DNA from: Egicoccus halophilus
GTDB taxonomy: Bacteria > Actinomycetota > Nitriliruptoria > Nitriliruptorales > Nitriliruptoraceae
Length of the DNA: 64,000 nucleotides
Direction of reading: 5' to 3'
Assembly: GCF_004300825.1 (NCBI RefSeq)
Contig: NZ_CP036250.1
Location: forward strand, 1,674,001 to 1,738,000
The notes beneath the pieces were generated by a model. It worked only from the letters and a program-made list of their open reading frames with translations, did not search any database and was not told the origin of the DNA. Made by a program: the position numbers and the translations under genes. Position 1 is the first letter of the stretch. Each line of letters begins with the position of its first letter. Below, in pieces: positions 5,934 through 63,174 of the stretch.

Positions 5934-5994
5934 GCCAGGCGTCGCGACGGCGTGCCGCGGGGGCGCCGCCGGCTGCCCCGACCCAGGAAGCCGT

Positions 5995-7287
5995 ATGGAA
6001 CCCGGAGCCGAGCCGCTGCACGTCGTCGCGCTCGTCGGCGACTTCCCGGCCGTGTCGAAGACCTTCGTCCTCGACCAGCTCGTCGGGCTGCTCGATGCCG
6101 GCCACCGGTTGACCGTGCTGGCCGAGCCGCCCCGACCCGGCGAGGCGCCCGCACCCGGGACCGTTCCCGACCCGGTGGTGCGGCGGATCCGCTACCGCCA
6201 GCCGCCGCCGTCCGGGCGTGCGGCTCGGCGGACGCATGCGGCACGGTCGCTGCTCGCGGCGTTGCGGGTGGCGCCGCGCGCGACCGCGTCGTTGCTGGCC
6301 GACCGCAGGCTGTCGCTCGGCCGTCGCCGCGAACTGCTCGACCTCGTGCCCGTGCTGCACGACCTCGGGGACGCCGACGTCTTCCACGCCCACTTCGGGG
6401 TGCTCGGTCGCGACCTGGTCGAGGTCCGTGGTCACCTGGGCCTGCCGGCCCCGGTGGTGACCGCCTTCCATGGCTTCGACGTCAGCCGCCACGTGGAACG
6501 CTTCGGTCCCCGCGCGTTCGACCGGCTGTTCGCCGAGGGGGAGTTGCTGCTGCCCGTCAGCGAGCACTGGCGCGAGCGGCTCTCGGCGCTCGGTGCACCC
6601 GCCCACAAGCTGGTCGTCCATCGCATGGGTGTCGACGTCGAGCAGTTCTCGCGCCCCGACCGTCGACCCGACCCGACCGGGCGACTGCGGATCCTGTCGG
6701 TGTGTCGACTGGTGGAGAAGAAGGGCCTGACCCACGGCATCGACGCGGTGGCCCGCCTGCGCGAGCAGGGGATCGACGCGCACTACCGGGTGATCGGCGA
6801 CGGGCCGCTGCGCGTGACCCTCGAGCAGCAGGTCCGCGACCGCGGGCTCGACGACCGGGTCACGTTCCTCGGGTCGCGACCACGCGAGCAGGTGGTGGCG
6901 TCCCTGCAGGCGCACGACGTGCTGCTGTGTCCGAGCGTGACCGCGGCCGACGGGGACACCGAGGGCATCCCGGTCGTGCTCATGGAGGCGATGGCGACCG
7001 GCCTGCCGGTCGTGGCCAGTCACCACTCCGGCATCCCGGAGCTGGTCGAGGACCGACGCAGCGGGCTGCTCGCGCCCGAGGGCGACGACGCGACGCTCGC
7101 GCGACACCTGCGCCGACTGCACGAGGACCCGGCCTTCGCCGGCGCACTGGGTTCCGCCGCCCGACGTCGCGTCGAGGAGGAGTTCGACGTCCGGCGGCAG
7201 GTACGTCGCCTGTCGAGCCACCTGCAGGTGGTCGCCACCACCGGGGGAGCGGCCGGCGAGCACCGCCCGCGCCGCCAGCGCCCGTGA
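5995..7287 (+). CDS. GT4-family glycosyltransferase
   Basis: Retaining GT-B glycosyltransferase, 430 residues. The N-terminal half starts VVALVGDFPAVSKTFVLDQL, typical of colanic-acid/exopolysaccharide-type GT4 enzymes (WcaL/AmsK-like). Acceptor-domain features include DVFHAHFGVLG and FHGFDVSRHV. The C-terminal Rossmann half has LSVCRLVEKKGLTHGIDA, VIGDGPLR, and the donor-binding E-x7-E motif at Glu323 and Glu331 (EGIPVVLMEAM). The ATG was chosen because it starts the fold and has AGGA about 8 bases upstream; the frame stays open further upstream without support. Followed by a small inverted repeat at 7298-7317. Confidence 0.9.
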   Translation: MEPGAEPLHVVALVGDFPAVSKTFVLDQLVGLLDAGHRLTVLAEPPRPGEAPAPGTVPDPVVRRIRYRQPPPSGRAARRTHAARSLLAALRVAPRATASLLADRRLSLGRRRELLDLVPVLHDLGDADVFHAHFGVLGRDLVEVRGHLGLPAPVVTAFHGFDVSRHVERFGPRAFDRLFAEGELLLPVSEHWRERLSALGAPAHKLVVHRMGVDVEQFSRPDRRPDPTGRLRILSVCRLVEKKGLTHGIDAVARLREQGIDAHYRVIGDGPLRVTLEQQVRDRGLDDRVTFLGSRPREQVVASLQAHDVLLCPSVTAADGDTEGIPVVLMEAMATGLPVVASHHSGIPELVEDRRSGLLAPEGDDATLARHLRRLHEDPAFAGALGSAARRRVEEEFDVRRQVRRLSSHLQVVATTGGAAGEHRPRRQRP

Positions 7288-8590: not shown

Positions 8591-10615
8591 ATGACCGTCA
8601 CCGCCATCGTCCCCTGTCGCGACGGGGAGACCCATCTCGCCCAGACCCTCGGCTCGCTCCTCGAGCAGACCTCCCCACCCGCGGAGGTGCTCGTGGTCGA
8701 CGACGGGTCGAGCGATGCGAGCCCGGAGATCGCCCGACGGTTCGTCGCGCGGTGGCCCGCCCATGTGCGTCTGCTGCGCAGCGCTGGTCATGGGGCGCCC
8801 TTTGCGCGCAACCTCGGCGCGGACCAGGCGAGCGGTGACGCGCTGTGGTTCGTGGACGCCGACGACGTCGCCGCGCCCGACACGCTCGCCGGGCTGGTGG
8901 AGGCGCTCGCCGAGGCTCCCGACGGTGTCGCCCTCGCGCCGTGGTCACGTCTGCAGGCCGTGGACGGCCGCTGGGTCCGCCGGCGCCGTTCGTGTCGGCC
9001 CCGGCGGGCGGGGGAGGACCCGCTCGACGCCTGGTTGACCGGCTGGTACCACCCGACCAGTGCCGTGCTGTGGTCGCGCGAGGCGTTCGAGCGGGCCGGC
9101 CGATGGGACGAGCGGCTGCACAACAACCAGGACGGCGACCTGGTGCTGCGTGCGCTGGTCGGGGGCACGCCGATGGTCGAGGCGTCCCGGGGTGAGCTGC
9201 TCTACCGCCGCCACGAGGCGGCCACCTCGCTGAGCGACACCCGGACGACCGCCCGCGGCGTGCGTTCGCGCTTCGAGGTCGTCCGCAAGGTCCGCTACCG
9301 GCTGGAACTCGAGGGCGAGCTGCCCCGCCACCGCCATGCCGTCGCCCGGGCGTTCCTCGACGTCGCCGCTCTCGCCGAGGTCGCCGATCCGGCCCTGGCA
9401 CGGCGCTGTCGCACCCTGGCCGCGCTCGAGCGACCGGCGCTCCCCGCCCGTCTCGCCCACCGTGCGGCCGAGGAGACCCGACGGGTACGGCTGCGGGGGA
9501 TCGACGGCGTCCGCGACCGGCTCGAGCGGCGCCGCCACGCCCGCCCGGGGTCGGGGACGGCACGCCAGGGTGCCGCGCCGGACGGCCTCGACGCCGAGAT
9601 CGACGTCGATCTCGACGCCGAGATCGACGTCGAGATCGACTTCGGACAGCGCTCGGCGCGCGCCGCCCTCGACGTGGTGCCGGCACCGGCGTCGGTGACG
9701 GTGACGCCGCGGCGTCCGCTGGTCAGCGTGCTGGTGCCCACCTACAACCGGGTGCACCTGCTGACCCGGGCGCTCGACAGCGCGCTGCGCCAGACGATGG
9801 CCGACCTCGAGGTCCTGGTGGTCGACGACGGCTCGACCGACGGCACCCAGCCGGTGGTGGCGAACCATCCCGACCCCCGCGTGCGCTACCTGCGCCAGGT
9901 CCCCAACCAGGGCGTGAGCGCCGCACGCAACCGCGGCATCCGTGCGGCACGGGGCGACTACCTCGCCTTCCTCGACTCCGACGACGAATGGTTCCCCGAC
10001 AAGCTCGCCCGCCAGATGCGCCGGTTCGCCGCGCTGCCCGCCTCCGTCGCCATGGTGTACGCCGGGGTCGAGGACGACGACGGCCTCGGGAACCGCCGTC
10101 CGCGTCGGGCCACCCACCAGGGGGACCTCCATGCGCAGCTGTTGCGACGCAACGTCGTGCACGGGACCTCCAGCGTGGTCCTGCGACGCGAGGTCGTGGC
10201 GACCGTCGGGTTCTTCGACGAGTCCATCCCCGCCATCGAGGACTACGAGTACTGGCTGCGGGTGGCCCGCTTCTTCGACGTCGAGGTGGTCCCGCAGCCG
10301 CTGTCGCGCTACCACGACCCCGCCGACCAACCCCGCAAGTCGCTCGAGCTGGACGCCAACCTCGCCGCGCGTGACGTCCTGTACGGTCGTCACCGCGGCG
10401 AGCTGCGACGTGCTGGCGTGGCGCACCTGTTCCTGCTCGAGAGCGCCCGCCGTCACCGCGTCGCCGCCTCCGGCGACCTCCGCACCGCCCGGCACCTGGC
10501 GGCACGGGCGTGCCTGCTGTCGCCGACCACCATCCGCGCCTGGGAGCTGCTCGGGCGAACGCTCGTCCCCGACGTCGTCCGCCGGGCCCGTCGCCGCGTC
10601 CGCGGCGTCGCCTGA
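8591..10615 (+). CDS. Fused double GT2 glycosyltransferase
   Basis: A 674-residue protein with two complete GT-A domains. Domain 1 (about residues 1-225) has TAIVPCRDGETHLAQTLGSL, VVDDGSSD and the DxD-type WFVDADDV. Domain 2 (about 376-600) has LVPTYNRVHLLTRALDSAL, VVDDGSTDGT and FLDSDDEW. Between them is an Arg-rich helix region and an acidic linker made of two near-identical 8-residue units (DAEIDVD). Two-domain GT2 enzymes are known to build alternating or two-step linkages; whether both sites are active here is inference, although both keep their metal motifs. ATG chosen at the start of the fold; an in-frame GTG lies 30 bp upstream. Divergent from the GT4 gene at 7331-8473. Confidence 0.87.
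   Translation: MTVTAIVPCRDGETHLAQTLGSLLEQTSPPAEVLVVDDGSSDASPEIARRFVARWPAHVRLLRSAGHGAPFARNLGADQASGDALWFVDADDVAAPDTLAGLVEALAEAPDGVALAPWSRLQAVDGRWVRRRRSCRPRRAGEDPLDAWLTGWYHPTSAVLWSREAFERAGRWDERLHNNQDGDLVLRALVGGTPMVEASRGELLYRRHEAATSLSDTRTTARGVRSRFEVVRKVRYRLELEGELPRHRHAVARAFLDVAALAEVADPALARRCRTLAALERPALPARLAHRAAEETRRVRLRGIDGVRDRLERRRHARPGSGTARQGAAPDGLDAEIDVDLDAEIDVEIDFGQRSARAALDVVPAPASVTVTPRRPLVSVLVPTYNRVHLLTRALDSALRQTMADLEVLVVDDGSTDGTQPVVANHPDPRVRYLRQVPNQGVSAARNRGIRAARGDYLAFLDSDDEWFPDKLARQMRRFAALPASVAMVYAGVEDDDGLGNRRPRRATHQGDLHAQLLRRNVVHGTSSVVLRREVVATVGFFDESIPAIEDYEYWLRVARFFDVEVVPQPLSRYHDPADQPRKSLELDANLAARDVLYGRHRGELRRAGVAHLFLLESARRHRVAASGDLRTARHLAARACLLSPTTIRAWELLGRTLVPDVVRRARRRVRGVA
9587..9633 (+). 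repeat. 24-bp tandem duplication in GT2 linker
   Basis: A 23-bp sequence at 9587-9609 recurs exactly at 9611-9633, giving a 24-bp period that encodes the acidic units LDAEIDVD and LDAEIDVE in the linker of the double GT2 protein. A third partial copy follows. Confidence 0.85.
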
Positions 10616-29404: not shown

Positions 29405-30313
29405 ATGCACGGGGACACGTCATTCGTCGGGGACGCGAAGCACCTGCCGACCGCGCCCCAGGGCGGGCCCTCGGCTCCGGTGCCGGCACCGGAGGCCGGG
29501 CGCGTGCGCTCGCCCTACGAGCGGTTCGTCAAGCCGGTGTTCGACCGGACCGTGGCGGCCGTGCTGCTGCTCGTGCTGAGTCCGCTGTTCGCGTTGGTGG
29601 CCGTGCTCGTCCGGTACGAGCTCGGGGCGGGGGTGCTCTACCGCCAGGAACGGGTCGGCCTCGACGGCCGCCGGATCCAGATGCTGAAGTTCCGCACGAT
29701 GCAGAGCGACCGGCGTCGCGACGCCACGGGTGTGGCCCGTCCCGACCGGCGCGCCGCCACCGACCGGCGCGGCAGCACGGACCGTCGGGTCTCGACCGCA
29801 CCCTACGACGGACCCGAACGGCGGGTCGCCGAGCGGCGGCAGCAGGAACGTCGGCAGGCCCCCGAGGGACGCCGCCGGACCCACAAGACGCCCGACGACC
29901 CGCGTCACACCCGTCTCGGGCGTTTCCTGCGACGGACGAGCCTCGACGAGCTCCCGCAGCTGGTCAACGTCATGCGTGGGGACCTCAGCATGGTCGGCCC
30001 CCGTCCCGAACTGCCCGAGGTCGTGGCCGTCTACGCCGCCTGGCAGCACGCCCGTCACGCGGTCAAGCCCGGCATCACGGGCCTGTGGCAGGTCACCGAG
30101 CGCGACGACGGCCGGCCGATGCAGGAGCACGTGGCGACCGACCTGCGCTATGTCGCCAGCGTCTCGCTGGTGAGCGACCTGCTGATCCTGGCGTTGACCG
30201 TTCCCGCGATCCTCGGGATGGTGCCCACCTGGGCCGCACGGTGGCTGGCGCGTCGGGGCACTCAGCGCGGCGGGGCCGCCAGTGCCGCACGGATGCCCTC
30301 CGCGAACCGCTGA
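29405..30313 (+). CDS. Polyprenyl-phosphate sugar-1-phosphate transferase
   Basis: Initiating transferase of the bacterial sugar transferase family (WbaP/WcaJ C-terminal type): moves a sugar-1-phosphate from a nucleotide sugar to undecaprenyl or decaprenyl phosphate. It has the re-entrant helix (VKPVFDRTVAAVLLLVLSPL, residues about 43-60), VLYRQERVGLDGRRI, MLKFRTM, then RTSLDELPQLVNVMRGDLS, VGPRPE and GITGLWQV, all conserved. The five-helix N-terminal part of larger enzymes is absent. Residues about 101-166 are an extra Arg-rich insertion with repeated DRR/ERR units. ATG with GGAG 7 bases upstream. The 3' end overlaps the convergent GT4 gene by 52 bp. Confidence 0.92.
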   Translation: MHGDTSFVGDAKHLPTAPQGGPSAPVPAPEAGRVRSPYERFVKPVFDRTVAAVLLLVLSPLFALVAVLVRYELGAGVLYRQERVGLDGRRIQMLKFRTMQSDRRRDATGVARPDRRAATDRRGSTDRRVSTAPYDGPERRVAERRQQERRQAPEGRRRTHKTPDDPRHTRLGRFLRRTSLDELPQLVNVMRGDLSMVGPRPELPEVVAVYAAWQHARHAVKPGITGLWQVTERDDGRPMQEHVATDLRYVASVSLVSDLLILALTVPAILGMVPTWAARWLARRGTQRGGAASAARMPSANR

Positions 30314-31466: not shown

Positions 31467-32564
31467 GTGCGCATCGTCAACTACCACCCGCGGGCACGGG
31501 TCGGTGACGGCGGCATCACCAACTCCGTGCGGCGGCTCGCCGAGGCGTGGGCGCGGCAGGGTGCCGTGCCCGTGATCGCCTTCGACGGCCGCGGCCGACC
31601 GTTCGACGAGGACGGGGTGCGCTGGTGGCCGATCCGGCACGTCGGTCGGGGAGCCCTCCGGGTGCCGGTCGACGGCCTCGGACCACTGGGTGGCGCCGAC
31701 TGGTTGGTGCTCAACTCGGCCTGGACGGCCGCCAACCTGCGCCTGGGGGCGGCCGCCCGCCGCCAGCGGGTGCCCTACGTGCTGGCGCCCCGGGGCGCCT
31801 ACGACCCACTGATCCTGCAGCGTCGAGCCCGGGCCAAGCGCGTGTGGTGGCAGCTGGGGGAGCGGCGCCTGGTCGCGGACGCTGCCGCGGTGCACGTCTT
31901 CTTCCCCGAACAGGGCCGCCACCTCGACGAGCTCGAGGTCCCGGTGCGGCTGCTGGTCGCCCCCAACGGCGTGGTCCCACCCGGACACACGTCCTGGGAC
32001 GGCGGCAGCGGCGGCTACGTCCTGTACCTCGGACGCTACGACCCCGAGCACAAGGGCATCGACCTGTTGCTGCGGGCCTGCGCGGCCCTGCCGGCCGGCC
32101 GACGCCCGCAGCTGCGGCTGCACGGCTCGGACTGGCGGGGTGGTCGCGTGCGCGTCGAGGGCCTGGTCGCGGACCTCGGGCTCGCCGACGTCGTCACCGT
32201 CGGCCCGCCGGTGCACGGCGAACACAAGTGGCGGGTCGTGGCCCGCGCCCGTGGCCTGGTCTACCCCTCGCGCTGGGAGGGCTTCGGCAACTCGCTGGCC
32301 GAGGCGGCGGCGCTGGGCGTGCCGTGCCTGGCCACCCCGTATCCGCTGGCGCGGGAGCTGGGCGCCGCGGGTGCCTGCCTGGTCGTGCCCCCGACGGTCG
32401 AGGACCTCGCGGACGGGTTGCGGCGCCTGATCGCACCGCAGGCCGCCGCCGTGGGACAGCGGGCCCGTCGTCACGTGGCCGAGCACCTGGGCTGGGACCA
32501 GGTCGCTGCCAGCTGGCTGCGGCAGCTCGCGGCACTCGGCTCGGCACCGCGCGGGGTCGGCTAG
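31467..32564 (+). CDS. GT4-family glycosyltransferase
   Basis: GT-B glycosyltransferase, 365 residues. N-terminal domain: MRIVNYHPRARVGDGGITNS, DWLVLNSAWTAANLRLG and YVLAPRGAYDPLIL, typical of colanic/exopolysaccharide enzymes. C-terminal domain: YVLYLGRYDPEHKGIDLLLR, LRLHGSDWRGG and the donor motif WEGFGNSLAEAAA (E-x7-E). GTG start; only 26 bp separate it from the divergent GT4 start, so the two genes must share control elements within each other's 5' ends. It leads a four-gene plus-strand run to 36158. Confidence 0.9.
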   Translation: MRIVNYHPRARVGDGGITNSVRRLAEAWARQGAVPVIAFDGRGRPFDEDGVRWWPIRHVGRGALRVPVDGLGPLGGADWLVLNSAWTAANLRLGAAARRQRVPYVLAPRGAYDPLILQRRARAKRVWWQLGERRLVADAAAVHVFFPEQGRHLDELEVPVRLLVAPNGVVPPGHTSWDGGSGGYVLYLGRYDPEHKGIDLLLRACAALPAGRRPQLRLHGSDWRGGRVRVEGLVADLGLADVVTVGPPVHGEHKWRVVARARGLVYPSRWEGFGNSLAEAAALGVPCLATPYPLARELGAAGACLVVPPTVEDLADGLRRLIAPQAAAVGQRARRHVAEHLGWDQVAASWLRQLAALGSAPRGVG

Positions 32565-32597: not shown

Positions 32598-33431
32598 GTG
32601 GAGGGCGCGTACGACCGCACGGCACTGTGGTTGCCGCTGCTGCGGGAGCTGACCGAACGCCACCCGGGCTGGGCGATCTGGAAGAACGTCGACTCGGCCT
32701 TCGCGGGCACCGGCGACGTCGACTCGCTCGGCCCGCCGGAGGACTGGGACGCCATCCGGGCGGTCTTCGAGGCCTGGGCGGCGCGCAACGGCCTGGGCCC
32801 GGTCATCGTGTGCCGGCACATCCCCCAGGGTCCGCACTACCTCGCGCTGGACCCCGACTCGCCGTTCCTCGTCCAACTCGACGTCAAGCAGTGTGGCACC
32901 TGGCGCGGCTCGACCCTGGTCGACGACCGGGACCTGCAGGCGCTCAGCGAACGCGACGAACGCGGGTTCCGACGGGTGCGCCCCGGCGCGGAGGGCGTCA
33001 TCAAGCTGTTGATGAACGGCACCCGCCGGGGCGGTGGGGCCAACGAGGAGGGCCTGCGCACCAAGCGGGTCGCCGAGCTGCTGGCGGCCGACCCGGCCGG
33101 TGCGACGGCCGCCACCCGGCTGGTCGGCCCGGCCCGCCGGCCGCTGCAGCGGGGCATCGACGCGGTGGTCGCCGGCCGCTGGGACCTCGCCGCCATGCGC
33201 CGCGTCGAGGCCTGGTGCCTGGCCCGCAGCCTGCTCGAGCCCCGGACGGCCCTCAGCCGGCTGTGGTTCCTGTACCACCTCGCCCCGCGCTGCCCGGTCG
33301 TGACGCTGATCCGCGACCACGACCGCATCGTCCCCGAGGACCGCGACGGCTGGCTCGCCGAGGTCGCCCGCGACCACGAGGTCGTCACCACCCCTGGCGG
33401 CCGGGATCCGCGTCGGGCACCGTACGGATGA
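32598..33431 (+). CDS. Nucleotidyltransferase-like protein, unknown
   Basis: A 277-residue soluble protein that I cannot place in a named family. Near the N-terminus WAIWKNVDSAFAGTGDVDSL (about residues 25-44) looks like the hG[GS]-x(n)-[DE]h[DE] core of the nucleotidyltransferase superfamily (G39, D40, D42), and a later acidic-containing strand (FLVQLDVKQCGTWRG) could give the third carboxylate. The C-terminal half is helical and Arg-rich. GTG start with GGGGAGG upstream. Its stop overlaps the next GT4 start (ATGA), so it is made together with that transferase and the downstream kinase fusion. A role in activating or transferring a nucleotide or phosphate group to the glycan is only a guess. 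Confidence 0.65.
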   Translation: MEGAYDRTALWLPLLRELTERHPGWAIWKNVDSAFAGTGDVDSLGPPEDWDAIRAVFEAWAARNGLGPVIVCRHIPQGPHYLALDPDSPFLVQLDVKQCGTWRGSTLVDDRDLQALSERDERGFRRVRPGAEGVIKLLMNGTRRGGGANEEGLRTKRVAELLAADPAGATAATRLVGPARRPLQRGIDAVVAGRWDLAAMRRVEAWCLARSLLEPRTALSRLWFLYHLAPRCPVVTLIRDHDRIVPEDRDGWLAEVARDHEVVTTPGGRDPRRAPYG

Positions 33432-34576
33432 GGGTCCTGGTCTTCGTCCACGCCTTCAACGGGCGTGCCATCGCCGACGTGGCGACCGTCCTCGCCGAGC
33501 AGACCGCCCGCCTCGGCCACGAGGTGCTGCTGGTCGCCGGCTCCGCGCCGACGGGGCGGCCGGCGGTCGCCGGGACCCGGACGCTGGATCTCTCGATCTC
33601 GTCGTCGCGCACGTGGCCGGCGATCCCGCGGCTGCGCGCCGTGATCCGCCGCTTCCGCCCCGACGTCGTGTACGCCCACGGCAACGGCCCGTCCCGGGCC
33701 GCCGTGCTGGCAACCCGCTGGCTGCGGCACCGACCGTTCGTGGTCACCGTCGAGCACAACCACTACTCGAGCTACGCCTGGACCCACCGCCGGGTCCGTG
33801 ATCTCGTCAACGCCCGGTTGCTGCCGCTGGCCGATGCCGTGGTCGGGGTCGCGCCCGAGATCGCCGAGGACCTCACCGGCACCTTCCCGGGCGTGCGCGA
33901 CAAGGTCGCGGTCGTCCCGCCGCCGTTGACGCGCTGGGACCGCCTTGCGGTGCTCGCCGCCGAGGATCCGGACCATCCGTGGTTCGCGGACGACGCCGAC
34001 GTCCCGGTGGTCGTCAGCGTCGCGAACGTGCACCCCCGCAAGGATCCCGAGACGTTGCTGCGGGCCGTCGCGCGGGTCAACGAACGCACCGGACGGACGG
34101 TGCGCCTGGCCGTCGTCGGCCGACCGTCGGACGCGGGCCTGCAGGCGCGGCTCGAGGCGTTCGCCCGGTCGGCGGGCATCGCCGACCGCATCGCGCTCCT
34201 CGGCTTCGTGTCCAATCCGTTGCCGCTGGTGGCGCGCGCGGACGTCTTCGCGCTGACGTCGCGCAACGAGGGGCTGCCGCTCTCGCTGCTCGAGGCGTTG
34301 GCGCTCGGCACGCCGGTCGTGAGCACCGACTGCCCGTCCGGGCCGAGGTGGTTGCTCGAGGACGGACGCTACGGCGAGCTCGTGCCGGTCGGCGACGTCG
34401 AGGCGGTCGCCGACGGGATCCTGCGGGTGCTCGACGACCCGGTCCGTCGCGAGCAGTTGCGACGCGAGGGGCCGCAACGCGTGGCGCCGTTCGTCCCCGA
34501 ACGCGTCGCAGCGGCGCTGCTGGCGCTGCTCGATCCGTCGGTCCAATCAGGCTCGCCGGGGCGGGGGTCCGGATAG
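33428..34576 (+). CDS. GT4-family glycosyltransferase
   Basis: GT-B enzyme, 382 residues, of the common RfaB/PimB-like group. N-terminal: VFVHAFNGRAIADVATVLAE, DVVYAHGNGPSRAAVLATR and FVVTVEHNHYSSYAW. C-terminal: VVSVANVHPRKDPETLLRAV, VVGRPSDAGLQARLE, LLGFVSNPLPLVARADVFAL and NEGLPLSLLEALALG, with E-x7-E intact. ATG overlaps the previous stop by 4 bp. The long open frame upstream of this ATG is antisense or out of frame to real genes. The kinase fusion gene follows after 25 bp. Confidence 0.9.
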   Translation: MRVLVFVHAFNGRAIADVATVLAEQTARLGHEVLLVAGSAPTGRPAVAGTRTLDLSISSSRTWPAIPRLRAVIRRFRPDVVYAHGNGPSRAAVLATRWLRHRPFVVTVEHNHYSSYAWTHRRVRDLVNARLLPLADAVVGVAPEIAEDLTGTFPGVRDKVAVVPPPLTRWDRLAVLAAEDPDHPWFADDADVPVVVSVANVHPRKDPETLLRAVARVNERTGRTVRLAVVGRPSDAGLQARLEAFARSAGIADRIALLGFVSNPLPLVARADVFALTSRNEGLPLSLLEALALGTPVVSTDCPSGPRWLLEDGRYGELVPVGDVEAVADGILRVLDDPVRREQLRREGPQRVAPFVPERVAAALLALLDPSVQSGSPGRGSG

Positions 34577-34601
34577 CCTGCGGCGGGGCGAGAGGGACGA
34601 C

Positions 34602-36158
34602 GTGCGACAGGGCGGAGCCCGAGGGCACTCGAGCACGGGTGCGCGGGGAACGGTGCTGGTGGTCGCCGGTCCCGACGGCAGCGGGAAGTCCCACGTGGCG
34701 TCGGTGTTGTGCGACGCCGCCGCGCCGGGCCCGGTGTTGCACCTGCACCACCGGCCGAGGGTGCTGCCCGGCAAGACCCGTCACGAGGGGCCGGTCACCG
34801 ACCCGCATCGCGATCCGCCGTACGGGCCGGGCGCGTCCGCGCTCAAGCTGGTCTACCTGTACCTCGACTATGTGCTGGGCTGGCTGCTCCGGGTGCGCCC
34901 GGTGGTCCGCGCCGGTGGCACGGTGGTGCTCGAGCGTGGCTGGGAGGACCTCGCGGTCGACCCTCGCCGGTACCGACTGACGGCGCGTCCGCGGTTGCAC
35001 CGGCTGCTCGGGCTGCTGCTCCCGCGGCCCGACCGCAGCATCGTCCTCGCGGCACCGGTGGAGGAACTGCTGGCCCGCAAGGCGGAGCTGCCGGCCGAGG
35101 AACTGGCGCGTCAGAACGCGCGATGGCGGCGACTGGCCCGTTCGCGCCGCCGCATGCTGCTGTGGGACGCCCGCCAGCCCCCGGAGGACGTCCTGCCGTT
35201 CGCGTTCGAGCGTGCCGCGACGGCCGCAGCACAGTGGGTCGCGTTGCCCACCGCTCGCGACGCCCGCTTCGTGCTGCCGCGGACGCCGCGTCGCGCCTCC
35301 CTGGCGGGACTGCGCATCCATCGACCGGTCAGCCCGCGGGCGTTGGCGATGTGGGCCGCGGCCGGCACCGTGACGCGGGTGGGCGCGTTGCGGGTACTGA
35401 CCCCCACCCGGCCCGCCGCCTGGGTGTTGGACGCCGTCGGTGACCTCGTGCCTCCCGGAGGGACCGTCGCCACGGCACGGAGCAACCACGCCGGCCGCGC
35501 CCTGGTGCTCGTGCTGGATCGGCACGCGCGTGCCCAGTTGGTGGTGAAGGTCAGTGCGGACGAGGTCGGGCAGGCGCAACTCGCGCGCGAGGCCGCGAAC
35601 CTGCAGCGTTTCGGACCGCTTCTGCCCGCACCGCTGTGGGCCCCCGAGCTGCGACACGCCGATCCGGGACGGCTCGCGACGGCCCCCGTGCGCTGGCGGG
35701 TGTGCGCCGACCCCTGGCGGTTGCATCCGGACGTGGCCGCCGCACTCGGCGCGTTCCACCGGGCCAGCGGTCGGGGGGCGGGGGGCAACGGGCACGGCGA
35801 CATGGCGCCGTGGAACCTGTTGCCGACCCGGGACGGCTGGTGCCTGGTCGACTGGGAAGTGGCCGACGACGAGCGACCGCCCTTCGAAGACGTCTTCCAC
35901 TTCCTCGTCCAGGGCAGCGCACTGCTGGGTCGTCCCGACCTGACCACCGTCCTGCACGGGCTCGACGGCGGCGGCTGGGTGGGCGCCTGCCTGCGTGCCT
36001 ACGCCGACGCCGCCGGGGTCCGGGTCGGTGACGCGCCGGTCGAGTTCCGGCGCTACCTCGAGGCGTCGGGCGCCACCCTGGACCCGACCCGGGCGGACGC
36101 CAGGCGAGGCGTCAGCGCCCGACGGGCGTTCCTGGAAGCGCTCGAACGGCGCTACTGA
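34602..36158 (+). CDS. P-loop kinase fused to APH-type phosphotransferase
   Basis: A 518-residue bifunctional-looking protein. Residues 1-230 resemble a thymidylate-kinase-like P-loop enzyme: Walker A GPDGSGKS (23-30), a lid-like Arg-rich region, and LLWDARQPPEDVLPF. Residues about 290-518 have the kinase fold of aminoglycoside/choline phosphotransferases: an ATP-binding strand QLVVKVSADE, the catalytic loop HGDMAPWNLL (Asp400, Asn405) and the metal-binding VDWE (Asp417). Both active sites keep their key residues. Such pairings occur sporadically in actinobacterial polysaccharide loci; the substrate is unknown. It ends a run coupled to a GT4 and a nucleotidyltransferase-like gene. The stop overlaps the convergent GT2 stop by 7 bp. 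Confidence 0.78.
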   Translation: MRQGGARGHSSTGARGTVLVVAGPDGSGKSHVASVLCDAAAPGPVLHLHHRPRVLPGKTRHEGPVTDPHRDPPYGPGASALKLVYLYLDYVLGWLLRVRPVVRAGGTVVLERGWEDLAVDPRRYRLTARPRLHRLLGLLLPRPDRSIVLAAPVEELLARKAELPAEELARQNARWRRLARSRRRMLLWDARQPPEDVLPFAFERAATAAAQWVALPTARDARFVLPRTPRRASLAGLRIHRPVSPRALAMWAAAGTVTRVGALRVLTPTRPAAWVLDAVGDLVPPGGTVATARSNHAGRALVLVLDRHARAQLVVKVSADEVGQAQLAREAANLQRFGPLLPAPLWAPELRHADPGRLATAPVRWRVCADPWRLHPDVAAALGAFHRASGRGAGGNGHGDMAPWNLLPTRDGWCLVDWEVADDERPPFEDVFHFLVQGSALLGRPDLTTVLHGLDGGGWVGACLRAYADAAGVRVGDAPVEFRRYLEASGATLDPTRADARRGVSARRAFLEALERRY

Positions 36159-37126
36159 GCTGCGTCTCGGCCGGGACCGGGCCCCGCAGTGTCGCCGTTG
36201 CTGGCCCGCAGCCAGCGTTCGGCGTCGGCGACCCAGTCGGCGTCGGAGAGCAGCCGGTCGCGGAACCAGCGTTGCGCGCGCCTCGGCAGGACGACCGCGC
36301 CGCAGCGTGCCAGCGACGGCAGGTCCCCGGCACGGATCGCCCGGGCGTAGGCGCGCGCCGCCGGCAGACGGGCACCGGCCCGCAGTTCCTCGCCGGCCTC
36401 GAAGCGGTACTGGGCACCCCAGTCGATGGGACGGCCGTCGGCCAGGTCGGCCCGCTTCTCCTCGAAGATCCGCAGCTCGGCGTGCAGGTTGGCGCGGTTG
36501 CGGGACATGTTGCTGCCGTGCTGCCGGTAGGCGACCAGCGGACGCGGCACCAGCGCCGGGGGGCCGCTGCGCGAGAGCCGCAAGGCCACGTCCCAGTCGG
36601 CCGGGAACGGCAGCCGCGGGTCGAGCAGTTCGTCGCCTCCCAGACGCCCGCGTTCCCACAGCACGTTCGACATGCCCCCCGGCAGCACGAACCGGTAGGG
36701 GAGCTCGGCCATCAGTTGTGCTGGTGGCAGCGCCGGACGGCCACCGATGATCTGGTCGGCGCCGTCGATGTGGACGCAGCCGGTGTAGGCCCAGTGGCGC
36801 CCCGTCGCCTCCACGGCGGCGATCTGGGCCCCGAGCTTGTCCGGCGCCCACAGGTCGTCGTCGTCGAGGAAGCTGACCCAGCGCCCGGTGGCCGCGGCCA
36901 GGCCGGTGTTGCGCCCACCGACGCTGCCGAGGGAGGTCTCGTTGCGGATCACCCGCAGTCGCGGGTGGTCGTGTTCGCGCAGGAACGCGCGGGTGTCGTC
37001 CTCGGAGCCGTTGTCGACCACGATGACCTCGTGGTCGACGTCGCGCTGGCCCAGCGCGCTGTCGAGTGCCGCGGACAGCAATCGACGCCGGTTGTAGGTC
37101 GAGATGACCACGGAGACCTGTGCCAC
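36152..37126 (-). CDS. GT2-family glycosyltransferase (paralogue set member)
   Basis: GT-A enzyme, 324 residues: VSVVISTYNRRRLLSAALDS, VVDNGSEDDT, FLDDDDLWAPDKL (DxD region), then a set of motifs shared with three other genes here: LPGGMSNVLWER, ADWDVALRLSRSGPP, and a helical tail with DGRPIDWGAQYRF. The GTG start has GGGGAAG upstream and begins at the fold. One of four paralogues (with 45810, 47728, 54632). It lies on the opposite strand to its neighbours and is divergent from the carbamoyltransferase gene. Confidence 0.88.
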   Translation of the reverse strand: MAQVSVVISTYNRRRLLSAALDSALGQRDVDHEVIVVDNGSEDDTRAFLREHDHPRLRVIRNETSLGSVGGRNTGLAAATGRWVSFLDDDDLWAPDKLGAQIAAVEATGRHWAYTGCVHIDGADQIIGGRPALPPAQLMAELPYRFVLPGGMSNVLWERGRLGGDELLDPRLPFPADWDVALRLSRSGPPALVPRPLVAYRQHGSNMSRNRANLHAELRIFEEKRADLADGRPIDWGAQYRFEAGEELRAGARLPAARAYARAIRAGDLPSLARCGAVVLPRRAQRWFRDRLLSDADWVADAERWLRASNGDTAGPGPGRDAAQ

Positions 37127-37346: not shown

Positions 37347-39047
37347 GTGCGTATTCTCGGTGTCAACGACCAGCACAACGCTTCGGCCTGCCTGGTGGAG
37401 GACGGCCGGGTGGTCGCCGCGGTGCAGGAGGAGCGCTTCACGCGCATCAAGAACCACTACTGCTTCCCGCAGCAGTCGGTCGCCTGGTTGCTGCAGGCGA
37501 CGGAGACCGATCCCGAGCAGCTCGACGGTGTCGCCGTCGCCAGCGAGCACATCCCCGGTGCCTTCACGGGTACGGACCTCATCCGGTCCTACGTCGAGGG
37601 CGACCGCGTCAACGCGCGCGTGCGTCGGGCGGCCCGGCGGTCGCCGCTGTATCGCGTCCGACGCCGGCAGCGGCGCGCCGAACGACGTGCGGAGGCGCGT
37701 GCGGCAGGTCTGCCGCTCGAGCGGCTCGCGTTCGTCGAGCACCAGACCTCGCACGCCGCGGCCGCCTACCACGGCTCGCCGTGGGACGACGAGCCGGTCC
37801 TGGTGCTCACCTGCGACGGGCAGGGTGACGGCCTGTCGGCGAGCGTCCGGATCGGACAGGCCGGACAGCTCTCCGACCCCCTGGCCACCGTCAAGGGGGG
37901 AAGCTCCCTGGGCAGCGTCTACGCGACCGTCACCGCGCTGTCGGGCATGGTGCCGCTGGAGCACGAGTACAAGCTGATGGGCCTGGCGCCCTACGCCCCC
38001 GACAGCGGCGCGCAGCGGAGTTTCGCGCAGTTCGACGGCGTGCTGCGCTTCGCCGACGACGGGCTCAGCTGGGAACGGCGCGACGACGTCCCACATCTCG
38101 ACCACGCCTACGGCTACTTCCGCCAGCGCCTCGAACTGCACCGGTTCGACTGGATCGCCGCCGGGCTCCAGCGCTTCACCGAGCAGCACCTGGTGACCTG
38201 GGTGGAGAACGCCATCGCCGCCACGGGCATCCCCAGGGTCGCCGTCGCCGGTGGGGTCTTCATGAACGTGAAGGCGAACCAACGGATCGGGCAGATCGAC
38301 GGACTCGACGACCTGTTCGTCTTCCCGTCGTGTGGCGACGAGTCCAACGCCATGGGCGCGGCCTTCGAACGGCACACCTCGCTCGACGGCGGCGGTCGGG
38401 TGCAGCCGGTCGACGACGTGTACTGGGGTCCGACGATCAGCGACGCCGAGGTCGGCGCGCTCGTCGGCGACCTCCGCCGCGACGGGTTCGAGGTCCAGCG
38501 TCCCGACGACATCGAGGCCGCGGTGGCGGAGCTGTTGGTCGCCGGGCAGGTCGTCGCGCGGGCGAAGGGTCCGATGGAGTTCGGCGCCCGGGCGCTGGGC
38601 AACCGTTCGCTGCTGGCCGACCCGAGCAGCGTCGAGGTGGTCAAGGTCATCAACGACATGATCAAGAGCCGCGACTTCTGGATGCCGTTCGCGCCGATCG
38701 TCCGGGCCGAGGACGCCCAGGAGTACCTGCACAACCCCAAGGGTCTGCGCTCGCCCCACATGATGATGACCTTCGACACCCGGCGCTCCGATCAGTTCCC
38801 GGCCGCCATCCAGCCCTACGACCGGACCGCGCGACCGCAGGTGCTGCACCAGCGGCAGAACCCGGACCTGCACCGGCTGGTCACCCTCTTCCGCGAGCGG
38901 ACCGGACGGGGCGTGCTGCTCAACACCTCGTTCAACCTGCACGGGGCACCGATCGTCGCGTCGGCGCGGGATGCCGTGGACGTCCTGCAGCGCACCGGAC
39001 TGCGACACCTCGCCGTGGGCAACGTGCTGGTCAGCAAGCCGGCCTGA
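37347..39047 (+). CDS. Carbamoyltransferase (NodU/CmcH family)
   Basis: Transfers a carbamoyl group from carbamoyl phosphate to a hydroxyl on a sugar or other glycan. 566 residues with both family domains. The N-terminal ASKHA-like part has NDQHNASACLVEDGRVVAAV, EERFTRIKN, HQTSHAAAAYHGSPW (metal-ligand His residues), CDGQGDGLS and MGLAPY, then AGGVFMNVKANQRI. The C-terminal part has GPMEFGARALGNRSLLADP and LLNTSFNLHG. All expected motifs are intact, so it is probably active. GTG start with a weak upstream GGGGGA site. In a locus full of glycosyltransferases, the natural role is decoration of the polymer. Confidence 0.93.
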   Translation: MRILGVNDQHNASACLVEDGRVVAAVQEERFTRIKNHYCFPQQSVAWLLQATETDPEQLDGVAVASEHIPGAFTGTDLIRSYVEGDRVNARVRRAARRSPLYRVRRRQRRAERRAEARAAGLPLERLAFVEHQTSHAAAAYHGSPWDDEPVLVLTCDGQGDGLSASVRIGQAGQLSDPLATVKGGSSLGSVYATVTALSGMVPLEHEYKLMGLAPYAPDSGAQRSFAQFDGVLRFADDGLSWERRDDVPHLDHAYGYFRQRLELHRFDWIAAGLQRFTEQHLVTWVENAIAATGIPRVAVAGGVFMNVKANQRIGQIDGLDDLFVFPSCGDESNAMGAAFERHTSLDGGGRVQPVDDVYWGPTISDAEVGALVGDLRRDGFEVQRPDDIEAAVAELLVAGQVVARAKGPMEFGARALGNRSLLADPSSVEVVKVINDMIKSRDFWMPFAPIVRAEDAQEYLHNPKGLRSPHMMMTFDTRRSDQFPAAIQPYDRTARPQVLHQRQNPDLHRLVTLFRERTGRGVLLNTSFNLHGAPIVASARDAVDVLQRTGLRHLAVGNVLVSKPA

Positions 39048-41603: not shown

Positions 41604-42825
41604 CCGTTGCGGTCGGGACGTGTACCGGCCGCGGCATCGGCGCATCGCCGACCAGCCCCGCCGCGAGCTCGCGGTAAGCGGCGGCGAAGCGGCTCCGCGT
41701 GTGCGTGGACCGGGCATAGGTCCAGGCGCGGTCGGCCGCCTGGCGCAGCTCGTCGGTGCTGCGAGCGGCCAGTTCGCCGACCGCTGACCGGATCGACGCG
41801 ACGCTGGCCTCCTGCAGCACGACCGCGGCGTCGGCGGGCGCGTCGATGCCGGCCGCCGGCGTCATGATCGGGATCAGGCCGGCATGCATCGCGGTGATGA
41901 CCGAGCCCGACTGCGCATCGGAGGCCGTGGGATACACGAGACCGATGGTGTCGCGCATGAGCGCCTCGAACTGCGGCCCGGTGACGTCCACCCAGCCGAG
42001 GGTGGTGATGTTGGGCGTCTCGAACAGCTCCCGGTGGAAGGCCGCGCGGAAGTCGGGTTCGTCGTCGATCGGGCCGCAGACGGTCAGATGGCAGTCCGGC
42101 AGCTCGGCGAACGCCTCGAGCACCAGGTCGAGGCCGCGCAGGACCAGTCCGCCGCTGCTCAGGAACACGAAGCGGTTGCGCACCCGGTCGACGTCCTTCT
42201 CGACCGGCCGGTCGAACGTCCGGATGGGGGTGCCCGGAACGGGGTAGAGCGGCTTGCCCGCGTACGCCCACCGCTGGGCGGCGTGCCGGCCGCCGTAGAG
42301 CACGCCGAGGTCGGCGTGTTCGATCGCGAGGTTGGTCCTGCGCTCGACCCGACGGGGCTGCAGCGACACGCCACGCCGCTGCTGCAAATCGACCAGACGG
42401 TCGAACTCGGCCGCGTTCTGGAACAACAGGTGCTGGACCTCGATGTGGTGCACCCGGATGCAGTCGTCGTCGAGCAAGGGCGCGAGTCGCTCGAGGTTGT
42501 TGCGGGTGTCGATGACGAGGTCGTAGTGCCGCCGCGGGGTGAACAGGAAGTTGCGGTAGTTGACGACGTCGACGTCGTAGCCGAGCTCGAGATAGGTACG
42601 GGCGATCTCCCGGCACTCCCACAGGTTGGTGTGCGGCGCGGGGAAGGTGCCGTCCTGCAAGGCGAACGCCTCGGTCATGTAGGACAGCAGCACGGCGCCG
42701 CGTGCCGGTCGCACCTCGGTCCGCAGTTCGAGGGTGCGCAGTGCCGGCCGCAGGACCTTGGCACGGGTCTGCAGCCAGTCGCGTCGCAGCCGAGCGGCCT
42801 GGGCGGCACCGGACAAGGGGTTCAC
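41563..42825 (-). CDS. GT4-like glycosyltransferase
   Basis: GT-B type enzyme, 420 residues, of a less common subgroup. An N-terminal basic helical stretch precedes RGAVLLSYMTEAFALQDG and PHTNLWECREIARTYLELGY, then NYRNFLFTPRRHYDLVIDTR, VHHIEVQHLLFQNAAEF and a donor domain with RFVFLSSGGLVLRGLDLVLE, LTVCGPIDDEPDF and VYPTASDAQSGSVITAMHAG. GTG start with GAGGAG 7 bases upstream; it overlaps the stop of the upstream gene as GTGA, so the pair is translationally coupled. The 3' end overlaps the convergent GT4 gene. The acceptor is unknown. Confidence 0.8.
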   Translation of the reverse strand: MNPLSGAAQAARLRRDWLQTRAKVLRPALRTLELRTEVRPARGAVLLSYMTEAFALQDGTFPAPHTNLWECREIARTYLELGYDVDVVNYRNFLFTPRRHYDLVIDTRNNLERLAPLLDDDCIRVHHIEVQHLLFQNAAEFDRLVDLQQRRGVSLQPRRVERRTNLAIEHADLGVLYGGRHAAQRWAYAGKPLYPVPGTPIRTFDRPVEKDVDRVRNRFVFLSSGGLVLRGLDLVLEAFAELPDCHLTVCGPIDDEPDFRAAFHRELFETPNITTLGWVDVTGPQFEALMRDTIGLVYPTASDAQSGSVITAMHAGLIPIMTPAAGIDAPADAAVVLQEASVASIRSAVGELAARSTDELRQAADRAWTYARSTHTRSRFAAAYRELAAGLVGDAPMPRPVHVPTATVSDDEADAVGLRR

Positions 42826-43844
42826 GAACCTGCTCCTCTGGATCGGCCCGATCGGATCGGGCGCACGTTCATCGTTGCTGTCGGGATCCGCGGTCGTCCG
42901 GGCCCACGACCGTCGACGGCGGCTTCCCAGGTGCCGTCCGGTCGTCGCACCGGACAGACGTGGTGCATGCCGGTCGCGTTCCATCCCACGCCGCTGGCCG
43001 TGAGGACCGGACCGAGCGGCTCCTCGACGTAGGCGTCAGGCGTCAGCTCGACGATCCGCCAGGCGTCCACCCGCCGTCCGTAGTCACCGAGGCAGTCCTG
43101 CGAGAAGCGGATCGGGCCCGACTCGTCCACGACGACCGGACCGGCCGGCCGCGCGCGGCTGGCGTCACCGGCGACGACCGGACTGGCCGGGTGTTCCCGC
43201 CACGGGCCGGTCAACGCGTCGGCGACGTAGAGCCGCAGCGTGTCGAACGCGGACGAGGTCTCGACGAACATCCACCACCGCCCCTGGTGCCGGAACGGGG
43301 TGGCGTCGTGGAAGTACCCGCCCTCCAGCAGCGTCGTCACGTACTCCCACCGATCCGGGAAGGTGACCGCGCGGTACAGCCGTACCTGCTCCACCTCGGC
43401 GGTCTCCGGCACCAGGTACCAGCAGCCCTCGTGGTGGAACACGTGGGGATAGGACAGGTGGAACGGCTCGACGAGTACGCGTCCGCGGTACCGCCAACGG
43501 CCGGCGCCGGTGTGCTCGGCCAGGCCGATCTCGCCCCGTCCGCTGCGCCGGTTGAGCACCTCGAAGAACAGCAGACGACGCCCACCCGAGCAGATCAGGA
43601 AGGGATCGGCGACGATGTCGGCCGGGACGTCGTCGATCTCGGCGGTCGTGATCGCCAGTGCCTCCGCACCGTTCGGCTGCAGGGCGTGCAGGTGCGGGCC
43701 GGTCGTGACGCCGATCGCCCACTCCTGCCGGTGCCGGACCTTGGCCGGCTGCAGCCGGGCCGGAAGACGCAGCAGGGCGTCGCGGACGTGTCCGCCGATC
43801 AGGCGGCGCGGGGTCCCGGGGCGTGGTGGGACGGCGTCGGTCAT
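42822..43844 (-). CDS. GIPC-transferase-like beta-propeller protein
   Basis: A 340-residue protein resembling the 'glucosamine inositolphosphorylceramide transferase' family domain, a five-bladed propeller related to GH43-type folds and common in polysaccharide loci. Repeated blade motifs are visible: ADPFLICSGGRRLLFFEV, HLSYPHVFHHEGCWYLVPE, YFHDATPFRHQGRWWMFVE and PIRFSQDCLGDYGR. Whether it is a transferase or a sugar-binding/hydrolase-like protein is not known. ATG with GGAGGAAC upstream. It is coupled to the downstream GT4-like gene (GTGA overlap). A 281-bp region with two long-spaced inverted repeats lies upstream. Confidence 0.8.
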   Translation of the reverse strand: MTDAVPPRPGTPRRLIGGHVRDALLRLPARLQPAKVRHRQEWAIGVTTGPHLHALQPNGAEALAITTAEIDDVPADIVADPFLICSGGRRLLFFEVLNRRSGRGEIGLAEHTGAGRWRYRGRVLVEPFHLSYPHVFHHEGCWYLVPETAEVEQVRLYRAVTFPDRWEYVTTLLEGGYFHDATPFRHQGRWWMFVETSSAFDTLRLYVADALTGPWREHPASPVVAGDASRARPAGPVVVDESGPIRFSQDCLGDYGRRVDAWRIVELTPDAYVEEPLGPVLTASGVGWNATGMHHVCPVRRPDGTWEAAVDGRGPGRPRIPTATMNVRPIRSGRSRGAGS

Positions 43845-60481: not shown

Positions 60482-61666
60482 TCAGCTGCCATCGCGGATG
60501 AGCCGTAGGTGCTGCAGGTAGTCGTCGGCAACAGTCGAGATCGAGAACTCCCGGGCGCGCCGGCTGGCGCGGTCACGCAGTCCCGCCCGTAGCTCAGGGC
60601 TGTCGGCCACGGCCAAGATGCTCGAAGCGAGGGCAGCCGGCGAACGCACGTCCGTGAGTAGGCCTGCCCCGTTTCGCAACAGCCACGGAACGGCCCCACT
60701 GTCGGCGCCGGCGATCACCGGCACCCGTTGCGCCATGGCTTCGAGGATGACCATGCCGAACGACTCTTCCCGCGACGGGTGAACGAAGGCGGTCGCCGTC
60801 GAGAGCAGCGCAGCCAGCCCGCGGCGGTCCACCGGGCCGTGGAACTCGACCTGCTGCGTCAAACGACGCTGCGCGGCCCATCGCTGTGCAGCTCCGGTCG
60901 GTTCGTAGCCCTCACCCACGAGCAGCAGCTGGGCTTGCGGGGAGACCTGCTGCACCAGGCGCCATGCCTCGAGCAAGGTCCCGACGTTCTTTCTCGCGTC
61001 GAAGCCGCTGTTGACGGCGACGAACCGAAGCGAGTCTGCTCGTCGTTCAGCAGGCTGAGCAAGGAACCACTCGTCTGCGAGCCCATTCGGCAGGAGGACG
61101 CAGGAACGGCGGGCGTAGCGCTGAACTCGATGTGTGATGTAGGGAGAGACGCCAGCGAAGTGCCGGCCCTTGGCGAAAGCCCAACCCTGCATGGCGAGAC
61201 GACACGCCCGGTACGGATCGGGGGCGAAACGAAGGATTTCCGGTGCCCAGTCATGCACGGTCACCAGGGTGCGTGGATCGGCCTGCAGCGCGCCGAGTGC
61301 ATATTCGTAGGTCCAGTGGGCGCTGACAGACCGTGGTCGCTCCATCGAGAGCACCTGTTCGATGTAGGCGCGCTCGGTGCGGAAGAAGTCCCGTGCCCGG
61401 TCCCGGGCCCGCTCACGATACGGGCCGATGTGCAAGCGGACGCCCGCACCGTTCTCGTACACGAGGGGGGACCGCAGTCCGGGTTGCAGCGTCACGAGAA
61501 CGAGTCGCTCCACCGTTCGCTGCATGGCCAGAACGAGTTCGGTCACCGGGTGGCCACCGTGGCCCACCGCCGCGACCTCCGCGGACTCGTGGGGCACGAG
61601 ATCCAGCGCGGGAATGAGCCGCTGCGCATTCATCGGTCCCACTACGGCGATCGACTGCTTCGTCAT
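60482..61666 (-). CDS. GT4-family glycosyltransferase
   Basis: GT-B enzyme, 394 residues: SIAVVGPMNAQRLIPALDLV, VSAHWTYEYALGALQADPRT, VTVHDWAPEILRFAPDPYRA, VLLPNGLADEWFLAQPAE, VAVNSGFDARKNVGTLLEAW, LLVGEGYEPTGA, FHGPVDRRGLAALLSTATAF and REESFGMVILEAMAQ (E-x7-E). The ATG overlaps the flippase stop (ATGA), so it is coupled to the Wzx-type gene. It shares the relatively A/T-richer composition of 59219-60325. Confidence 0.9.
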   Translation of the reverse strand: MTKQSIAVVGPMNAQRLIPALDLVPHESAEVAAVGHGGHPVTELVLAMQRTVERLVLVTLQPGLRSPLVYENGAGVRLHIGPYRERARDRARDFFRTERAYIEQVLSMERPRSVSAHWTYEYALGALQADPRTLVTVHDWAPEILRFAPDPYRACRLAMQGWAFAKGRHFAGVSPYITHRVQRYARRSCVLLPNGLADEWFLAQPAERRADSLRFVAVNSGFDARKNVGTLLEAWRLVQQVSPQAQLLLVGEGYEPTGAAQRWAAQRRLTQQVEFHGPVDRRGLAALLSTATAFVHPSREESFGMVILEAMAQRVPVIAGADSGAVPWLLRNGAGLLTDVRSPAALASSILAVADSPELRAGLRDRASRRAREFSISTVADDYLQHLRLIRDGS

Positions 61667-63174
61667 GTGACCAACCCCATCGCTGTTCGTACCTTCTCGG
61701 GCAGGCGTCCCAGTGCGCCGGCCTTGTCCAGCCAGTCGGCGAGGTCGCGGCGGACGCCGCTGAGGGGACCGAAGCGGAAGGACGCGCCCAGGACGACGGC
61801 GTCGGCGACCACGTGCAGCAGCAGGCGGGGGAGTGCCGACACGGCCGCTGCTCCCTGCTCGATGCCGATCCCAACGGCAGCGAGCACCGCGGCGGTGATC
61901 AGCGCCGGTGCCAGGGCCCGCAGGTGCTCGGCGTAGGTCGTGCCGAGGATCCTGCGCATGAGGCCGAAGTAGCCCACGACGCGGACCATCTGGGCCGCGG
62001 CGACAGCCAACGCGAGCCAGCGCAACTCCGAGCCGGCCAGCGCCAGCAGCCCGGCCAGCACCAGCACGTGGGTCACCTGCAGCGCGAGCTTGCGGTTGAG
62101 GTCGGCGGTCGCCTCGCAGATGACCGCGCCGAACAGTGCCAGCAGGCTGCCGACGGCGGACACGGTGAGGAACGGCAGCACGCTCGCCGCCTGGTCCCAC
62201 TGGTCACCCAGCACCACGCGCACGAGCGGCCCGGCCGCGACGGCCATGCCGGCGGCGGTCGGAATGAGCAGCGCCGCCGCGATGCCCAGCGCGCTGCGGT
62301 AGACCCGGGCCAGACGCTCGCGTTCGTCCTGGATGCGGCTGAAGGCCGGAAACAGCACGCTCTGCACGCCCTGCATCAGGCGTTCGAGCGGCAGCGTCAC
62401 CAGCAGGTAGGCACGGTTGTACTGACCGAGGGCCGAGCCGCCAGCGACCCGACCGATGATGAGCGTGTCGAGGCTCATACCGAGGAACTCGGCGTAGCTG
62501 ATGATGCTGACGCGTCCACCGAAGCGCAGCAACGCGCCGGCGTCGCGCCGGTTCCAGCCGAGGCGCACCGGGTGCGGCCGCGCGAGCAGGGTCAGGATCG
62601 TGTTCAGCAGGGACTGGCTGAGGTGGGCGGCCACCAGGCTCCACACGCCGGCACCGAGCAGCGCGGCACCGAGGCCGACCACCAGGTAGCCGATCACGAA
62701 GCTGACCAGCTGGATGATCGCCAGGCGGCGGAAGTCGAGTTCTCTCCGCAACAGCGCGTTCGACGTGGCGCCGAGGGCGGAGAACAGCAGACCGAGCGCC
62801 ATCACGCGCGCGACCGGGACGACCACCGGGTCGTCGAGCAGGTTCTGCGCCAAACCGGCGATCGCGACGAACACCGCGACGACCGCGGTGCTCAAGCCGA
62901 GATTGGTCAGGAACGCCGTGCTGATGCGGCGGTCGGTCAACGACGGTGCCTGCACCAGCGCCGGTCCGACCCCCATCTGCGCGAAGTACTGCCCGAACCG
63001 CAGGAAGACCGTGGCCACGGCCAGCACGCCGAAGTCGGCGGGCCGCAGCAGCCGGCCCATCGCGGCGGTGTAGCCGACCTGCAGGAGCGCCCCGAAGATC
63101 GAGGCCCCGTAGGTCCACTGCAATCCGCTCCAGGTCCGCTTCGACATGGAGTCCGTGGCGGACTCATTGCTCAC
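61663..63174 (-). CDS. Wzx-type polysaccharide flippase
   Basis: A 503-residue multi-pass membrane protein of the MOP/PST lipopolysaccharide-export family, with about 12-14 helices, moving a lipid-linked oligosaccharide across the inner membrane. Typical sequence: SGLQWTYGASIFGALLQVGY, GRLLRPADFGVLAVATVFLR, QYNRAYLLVTLPLERLMQG and VLFPAFSRIQDERERLARVY. GTG overlaps the WecG-like stop (GTGA); an ATG nine codons later is also possible. Its stop overlaps the GT4 start. The three genes form a coupled export/transfer operon. Confidence 0.92.
   Translation of the reverse strand: MSNESATDSMSKRTWSGLQWTYGASIFGALLQVGYTAAMGRLLRPADFGVLAVATVFLRFGQYFAQMGVGPALVQAPSLTDRRISTAFLTNLGLSTAVVAVFVAIAGLAQNLLDDPVVVPVARVMALGLLFSALGATSNALLRRELDFRRLAIIQLVSFVIGYLVVGLGAALLGAGVWSLVAAHLSQSLLNTILTLLARPHPVRLGWNRRDAGALLRFGGRVSIISYAEFLGMSLDTLIIGRVAGGSALGQYNRAYLLVTLPLERLMQGVQSVLFPAFSRIQDERERLARVYRSALGIAAALLIPTAAGMAVAAGPLVRVVLGDQWDQAASVLPFLTVSAVGSLLALFGAVICEATADLNRKLALQVTHVLVLAGLLALAGSELRWLALAVAAAQMVRVVGYFGLMRRILGTTYAEHLRALAPALITAAVLAAVGIGIEQGAAAVSALPRLLLHVVADAVVLGASFRFGPLSGVRRDLADWLDKAGALGRLPEKVRTAMGLVT

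Follow-up and report, generated by a model that had tools for sequence, protein, structure and literature searches.

A fusion of thymidylate-kinase-fold and APH-fold domains within a recurring set of three enzymes in bacterial polysaccharide loci

An open reading frame in a glycan locus of Egicoccus halophilus (34602-36158, + strand, of the 64,000-nucleotide stretch analysed here, referred to as the window) encodes a fusion of two kinase-fold domains with conserved catalytic residues: a thymidylate-kinase-fold P-loop domain (T) and a domain of the APH, choline kinase and 5-methylthioribose (MTR) kinase fold (A). Together with a nucleotidyltransferase (NTase)-like protein (N), these domains make up a recurrent three-enzyme set of polysaccharide loci, of which the T-A fusion is a part. 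All three domains come from known superfamilies, and the recurrent combination is apparently undescribed: a literature search for it, covering few subscription papers, found no description. We regard the set as a glycan-locus tailoring module, probably for phosphate-containing decoration.

Two kinase-fold domains in one protein

The fusion comprises 518 amino acids when read from the GTG codon at 34602 in the window sequence. A Shine-Dalgarno-like sequence, GAGAGGGACGAC (34590-34601, + strand), lies immediately 5' of this codon and favours it as the start; a codon-score caller chose 34653 instead, and the exact position of the start is not certain. An earlier note on this DNA had described two apparently intact ATP-using domains in one protein, and both motifs are present as given—GPDGSGKS at residues 23-30 (including K29) and HGDMAPWN at residues 398-405 (including D400), with VDWE at residues 416-419 (including D417). 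The gene is present in one copy in the 3.98-Mb genome. Neither half reaches the cut-off of any Pfam or NCBIfam model, and the domains were assigned on the basis of an AlphaFold2 model (25 aligned relatives; mean pLDDT 91.8, pTM 0.84), Foldseek searches against the PDB and relatives that score above Pfam cut-offs. The kinase folds supposed for the two halves were borne out, with thymidylate kinase recovered by Foldseek for T, and MTR kinase, MphH and choline kinase for A.

T (residues 1-205; 34602-35216, + strand) is modelled with a pLDDT of about 90 outside a loop and a disordered tail formed by the first ~15 residues, and its best PDB match is the thymidylate kinase 5x7j (E 3.6e-7; TM 0.68 by target length). 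With thymidylate kinases (PF02223, TIGR00041) it shares the fold, a P-loop with an acidic residue (GPDGxGK) and the E/D-R motif; K29, R112, R159, K160 and E162 are invariant among T domains. The T of one relative (L057) meets the PF02223 cut-off (40.5 bits versus 27) and falls short of that of TIGR00041. A canonical dTMP kinase is encoded elsewhere in the window genome, and in an alignment with this enzyme T, which itself scores below the cut-offs, retains the P-loop and, with ERGW replacing DRF, the DR-motif arginine, has a short LID and lacks both REPGG and the SSxxYQGxGR thymine-pocket motif; DLAVDPRRYR stands where the dTMP kinase has SSIVYQGAGR. Given the separate canonical enzyme and the missing thymine-pocket motif, T as the housekeeping dTMP kinase was ruled out. 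The replacement of the thymine pocket by charged DLxVDPRRYR, the loss of REPGG and the short LID suggest that the acceptor differs from dTMP and is probably charged or polar. Residues 76-103 were considered as a membrane-anchoring helix and dropped as such (hydrophobicity peak of 1.33, near the 1.09 of the soluble dTMP kinase of the genome).

A (residues 206-518; 35217-36155, + strand) carries the motifs K316, E330, H398-G-D400-x-x-P-W-N405 and D417-W-E, and thus shares with APH, choline kinase and MTR kinase (PF01636) the ATP-binding lysine, the glutamate, HGDxxxxN and DW(E), as well as the fold. Foldseek matched it to 5-methylthioribose kinase (2olc), MphH (5uxd) and a choline/ethanolamine kinase (3dxq) with E values of 5e-6 to 2e-5, and weakly to RIO2. 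The A proteins of L057 (24.5 bits versus a cut-off of 23.2) and L075 score above the PF01636 cut-off and the window A below it. Compared with that superfamily, A forms an HGDxAPWN subfamily in glycan loci, has its own N-terminal extension and is fused to T.

K29, D400 and D417, which had been singled out as catalytic in the earlier note, are conserved in homologues along with K316 and E330. Across 11 diverse A domains, K316, E330, HGD, PWN and D417 are invariant, and five full-length fusions keep K29, E111-R112, K160, K316, H398-G-D400, N405 and D417. Both sites look functional, given the confidently modelled folds and the conservation of catalytic residues in homologues. The fusion being a frameshift or misassembly artefact was ruled out, as T-A is intact in eight loci (L011, L013, L014, L017, L053, L068, L069 and L070). 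Relatives of the fusion were found in Nitriliruptoraceae and Euzebyales records by an alignment-based scan of genome contigs, which returned 18 loci; a genome contig scan with the single fusion protein as the query gave no match, and a plasmid search with the window fusion protein was empty.

The surrounding glycan locus

The gene content is that of a polyprenyl-phosphate-based glycan locus, with an initiating sugar transferase (Bac_transf, PF02397, 3.7e-58; 29405-30313, + strand), many GT4 and GT2 enzymes, a WecG-type transferase and a Wzx-type flippase (PF13440, 2.3e-79; 61663-63147, - strand) in the same cluster. The fusion gene had been placed directly after a GT4 and an NTase-like gene; indeed, a GT4 gene (33428-34576, + strand; PF00534, 8e-33) precedes it and separates it from N (32598-33431, + strand). 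A second GT4 (31467-32564, + strand; identified by family search and neighbourhood) lies upstream of N, and a homologous gene stands ahead of N and T-A in L012, L013, L014, L068 and L070, which all have the order GT4-N-(T-A). The homologue of the GT4 that lies between N and T-A in the window is found directly 3' of T-A in L011 and L012 and one gene further in L014; L012 and L014 also have Bac_transf homologues close to the module.

A nucleotidyltransferase-like third member

N (277 amino acids) possesses the carboxylate triad of Pol-beta-type NTases (D40, D42 and D95). Among 14 relatives, D40-x-D42 is invariant and D95 is conserved in at least 90%, the third aspartate being missing in the N of L070. 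The AlphaFold2 model has a pLDDT of 94, and its top PDB matches in Foldseek are weak matches to nucleotidyltransferases (E 0.03); TglT was also matched weakly. A direct Pfam search of N gave no match; profile comparison with hhalign yielded a remote match to NTP_transf_5 (PF14907; 180 columns, E 2.6e-5, probability 75%), with which N shares a D-x-D motif and which some N-T proteins (G088 and G003) match weakly. What sets N apart from NTP_transf_5 is its linkage to T and A, in some cases by fusion. The motif, the weak Foldseek matches and the remote profile match together suggest an NTase fold. LicD (PF04991) was rejected as an identity for N (hhalign probability 5%), and no LicD gene was found in the window genome.

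Recurrence of the set in polysaccharide loci

A neighbourhood survey of homologues, proposed in the earlier note, showed that N, T and A recur in polysaccharide loci as separate neighbours or fused as N-T, T-A, N-T-A or A-N-T. The view of the fusion as an unusual unit in a glycan locus was right in that the unit is real and no description of such a module was found, and too narrow in that the unit is larger, includes N and has the fusion as one of its arrangements. The set was found in Actinomycetota, Alpha- and Gammaproteobacteria and Bacteroidota; its members are more loosely linked in Verrucomicrobiota (Akkermansiaceae, L059) and Chloroflexota (Anaerolineales, L066 and L067).

The arrangements grade from neighbouring genes to single polypeptides. 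N lies tail to tail with T-A in L011; T is followed by A in L060, L077 and L079; and an N-T fusion is followed by an overlapping A gene in L057 (an alphaproteobacterial contig) and L075. In L069, N-T-A is one uninterrupted 795-amino-acid open reading frame, the N part of which is weak (recognized by the motif and, in a small set that included shuffled controls, by a match at E 1.6e-4). In L012 (2653-5208), N, T and A share one frame with a single TAG inside T, which may reflect a sequencing error, readthrough or decay. Two tandem N copies lie 5' of the T-A fusion in L068 (6758-8432).

Plasmids provided five independent T loci, and in all five A is fused to T or lies within about 5 kb. A, N and T form one 823-amino-acid protein on a Hymenobacter plasmid (L115). 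The Leisingera, Agrobacterium, Legionella and Streptomyces plasmids each encode T and an A annotated as 'phosphotransferase' within one exopolysaccharide locus. In Streptomyces, A, T and N are three separate genes; in the other three, T has an N-terminal portion that resembles an NTase, least clearly so in Legionella, in which the motif alone identifies it. The plasmid T loci adjoin genes for Wzz, O-antigen ligase, EpsG or a flippase. A plasmid search with an Anaerolineales T as the query was empty. Where members of the set are annotated in exopolysaccharide loci, they are named only 'hypothetical protein' or 'phosphotransferase'.

The linkage was quantified across 397 actinobacterial genomes of a single draw, 35 of which have T (E up to 1e-10). 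N was detected in 11 (E up to 1e-6), each of which also has T, with N fused or close to it (hypergeometric 5e-13; 6e-4 for the three N genomes left out of model building). A (E up to 1e-18, a threshold set after viewing the list) was detected in 28 genomes, 13 of which share T versus 2.5 expected. These P values are guides only, since the genomes are related by descent and loci picked partly for T-A went into the A model. Among 30 T loci with 1.5 kb of flank, A was fused in 7 and separate in 6 more. The set is not strictly obligate, given that T occurs without A (L016, L018 and L058) and A without N or T (L080).

The latter locus contains two A-type kinases among glycan genes (5428-6681 and 9111-10355, - strand), so that A may have a role in glycan loci by itself as well. 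In L014 (17586-19526, - strand), a stand-alone A (52% identical to the window A) is in frame with a GT2 as one open reading frame; this GT2 is homologous to that encoded at 36152-37126 in the window, which lies tail to tail with T-A with a 7-base overlap.

Proposed function

The fusion of three NTP-using enzymes in different orders suggests that they act in sequence on one substrate, and the reading that we favour, although tentatively and at somewhat less than even chances, is that they would build or attach a phosphate-containing substituent of the glycan or of its lipid-linked precursor. A would phosphorylate a hydroxyl, as its fold relatives MTR kinase, macrolide kinases and choline kinases do. 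T would transfer a further phosphate, either onto that of A or onto a second position; the former is the simplest reading, since the T fold normally phosphorylates a phosphate monoester. N would transfer a further group, nucleotidyl, glycosyl or phospho-substituent, to the phosphate. Both the substrates and the sequence of these steps are guesses, and the decorated glycan would most likely be of the Wzx/Wzy type. The proposals of the earlier note—double phosphorylation of a sugar or lipid carrier, or a phosphorylated product made from a nucleotide donor—may also apply; the analysis addressed fold, residues and linkage. Several points count against a sequential reading: each kinase domain could have a target molecule of its own, a GT4 gene lies between N and T-A in the window, A and T also occur without the other members, and the evidence for the NTase fold of N is limited to the motif and weak or remote matches.

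The lasso peptide pseudomycoidin offers a precedent in which a kinase and an NTase homologue work successively at a single hydroxyl and a hexose ends up on the phosphate: PsmK (poly)phosphorylates a serine, and the NTase homologue PsmN is needed for the hexose on that phosphate (PMC9266682). The comparison with N/T/A is one of function; the pseudomycoidin system differs in that the substrate of PsmK/PsmN is a peptide and an APH domain is not reported.

A bolder form of the sequential reading is that N, T and A constitute an undescribed three-enzyme pathway, present in three or more phyla, for installing a phosphate-based linkage or substituent that would be new to bacterial exopolysaccharides (for example, a pyrophosphate-bridged or a nucleotidyl- or glycosyl-phosphate group); we regard this as doubtful. 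If the set is a pathway, scattered 'hypothetical protein' and 'phosphotransferase' genes of exopolysaccharide loci become a single testable one. From the linked set, phosphorus would be expected in the glycans of these loci, and knowing the set helps to keep T from being annotated wrongly as thymidylate kinase. No glycan analysis of any organism with N/T/A was found.

The best-surviving alternative, which we consider unlikely, is that the set makes donors by salvage: A would phosphorylate a free sugar or polyol, T would serve as a kinase of NMPs or sugar phosphates, and N would make an NDP-activated donor for the adjoining GT4s. Such a path would be comparable to the fused fucose kinase/GDP-fucose pyrophosphorylase FKP, and fits both the GT4 genes flanking the module and the fact that fusions of a kinase and a nucleotidyltransferase make nucleotide sugars in known pathways. 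However, N is Pol-beta-type, unlike the known sugar-1-phosphate nucleotidyltransferases, which have a different fold, and the second kinase would have no obvious role.

Quite improbable is a phosphocholine-type decoration, with A acting like LicA as a kinase of choline or an amino alcohol, N as a phosphotransferase of the LicD kind, and T recycling the released NMP. The LicA/LicD system likewise combines an APH-type kinase with an NTase-fold transferase for surface glycans, and A resembles the choline/ethanolamine kinase 3dxq. Yet comparing the profiles of N and LicD gave a negative result (probability of 5%), against the E of 2.6e-5 for PF14907, LicD is absent from the genome, no LicC-like gene was recognized among the scanned genes, and N/T/A includes an additional thymidylate-kinase-fold enzyme.

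We give an equally small probability to an ordinary fusion in which the tailoring kinases are unrelated and do not share a pathway, their linkage reflecting only the general clustering of glycan genes. Many genes do gather in glycan loci, and A and T are each found alone, but none of the 397 genomes has N without T, and the fusions are repeated in different orders.

Least probable of all is regulation—N modifying a protein, like AMPylating or UMPylating NTases, with T and A phosphorylating proteins that control glycan assembly, or, in a variant, N serving as the toxin of a toxin-antitoxin system—for which the weak Foldseek matches of N to TglT and of A to RIO2 can be cited, against the constant location among glycosyltransferase genes, the mainly small-molecule kinases among the closest folds of A and, for the variant, the presence of all three domains in single polypeptides in two orders, unlike a toxin with its antitoxin.

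Additional observations

Three further genes were noted in and around the cluster. An NTP_transf_5 (PF14907) gene that scores over the Pfam cut-off lies about 26 kb past the window in the same genome (G000:C1:1764101-1764841). A match to PF24793, the N-terminal domain of glucosamine inositolphosphorylceramide transferase 1 (GINT1), was found in this bacterial glycan locus at 42822-43844 (- strand; E 1.4e-41). A carbamoyltransferase (PF02543/PF16861) is encoded near the module at 37347-39047 (+ strand), and its close homologue in G010 lies past a second A copy (L015, 8326-10038).
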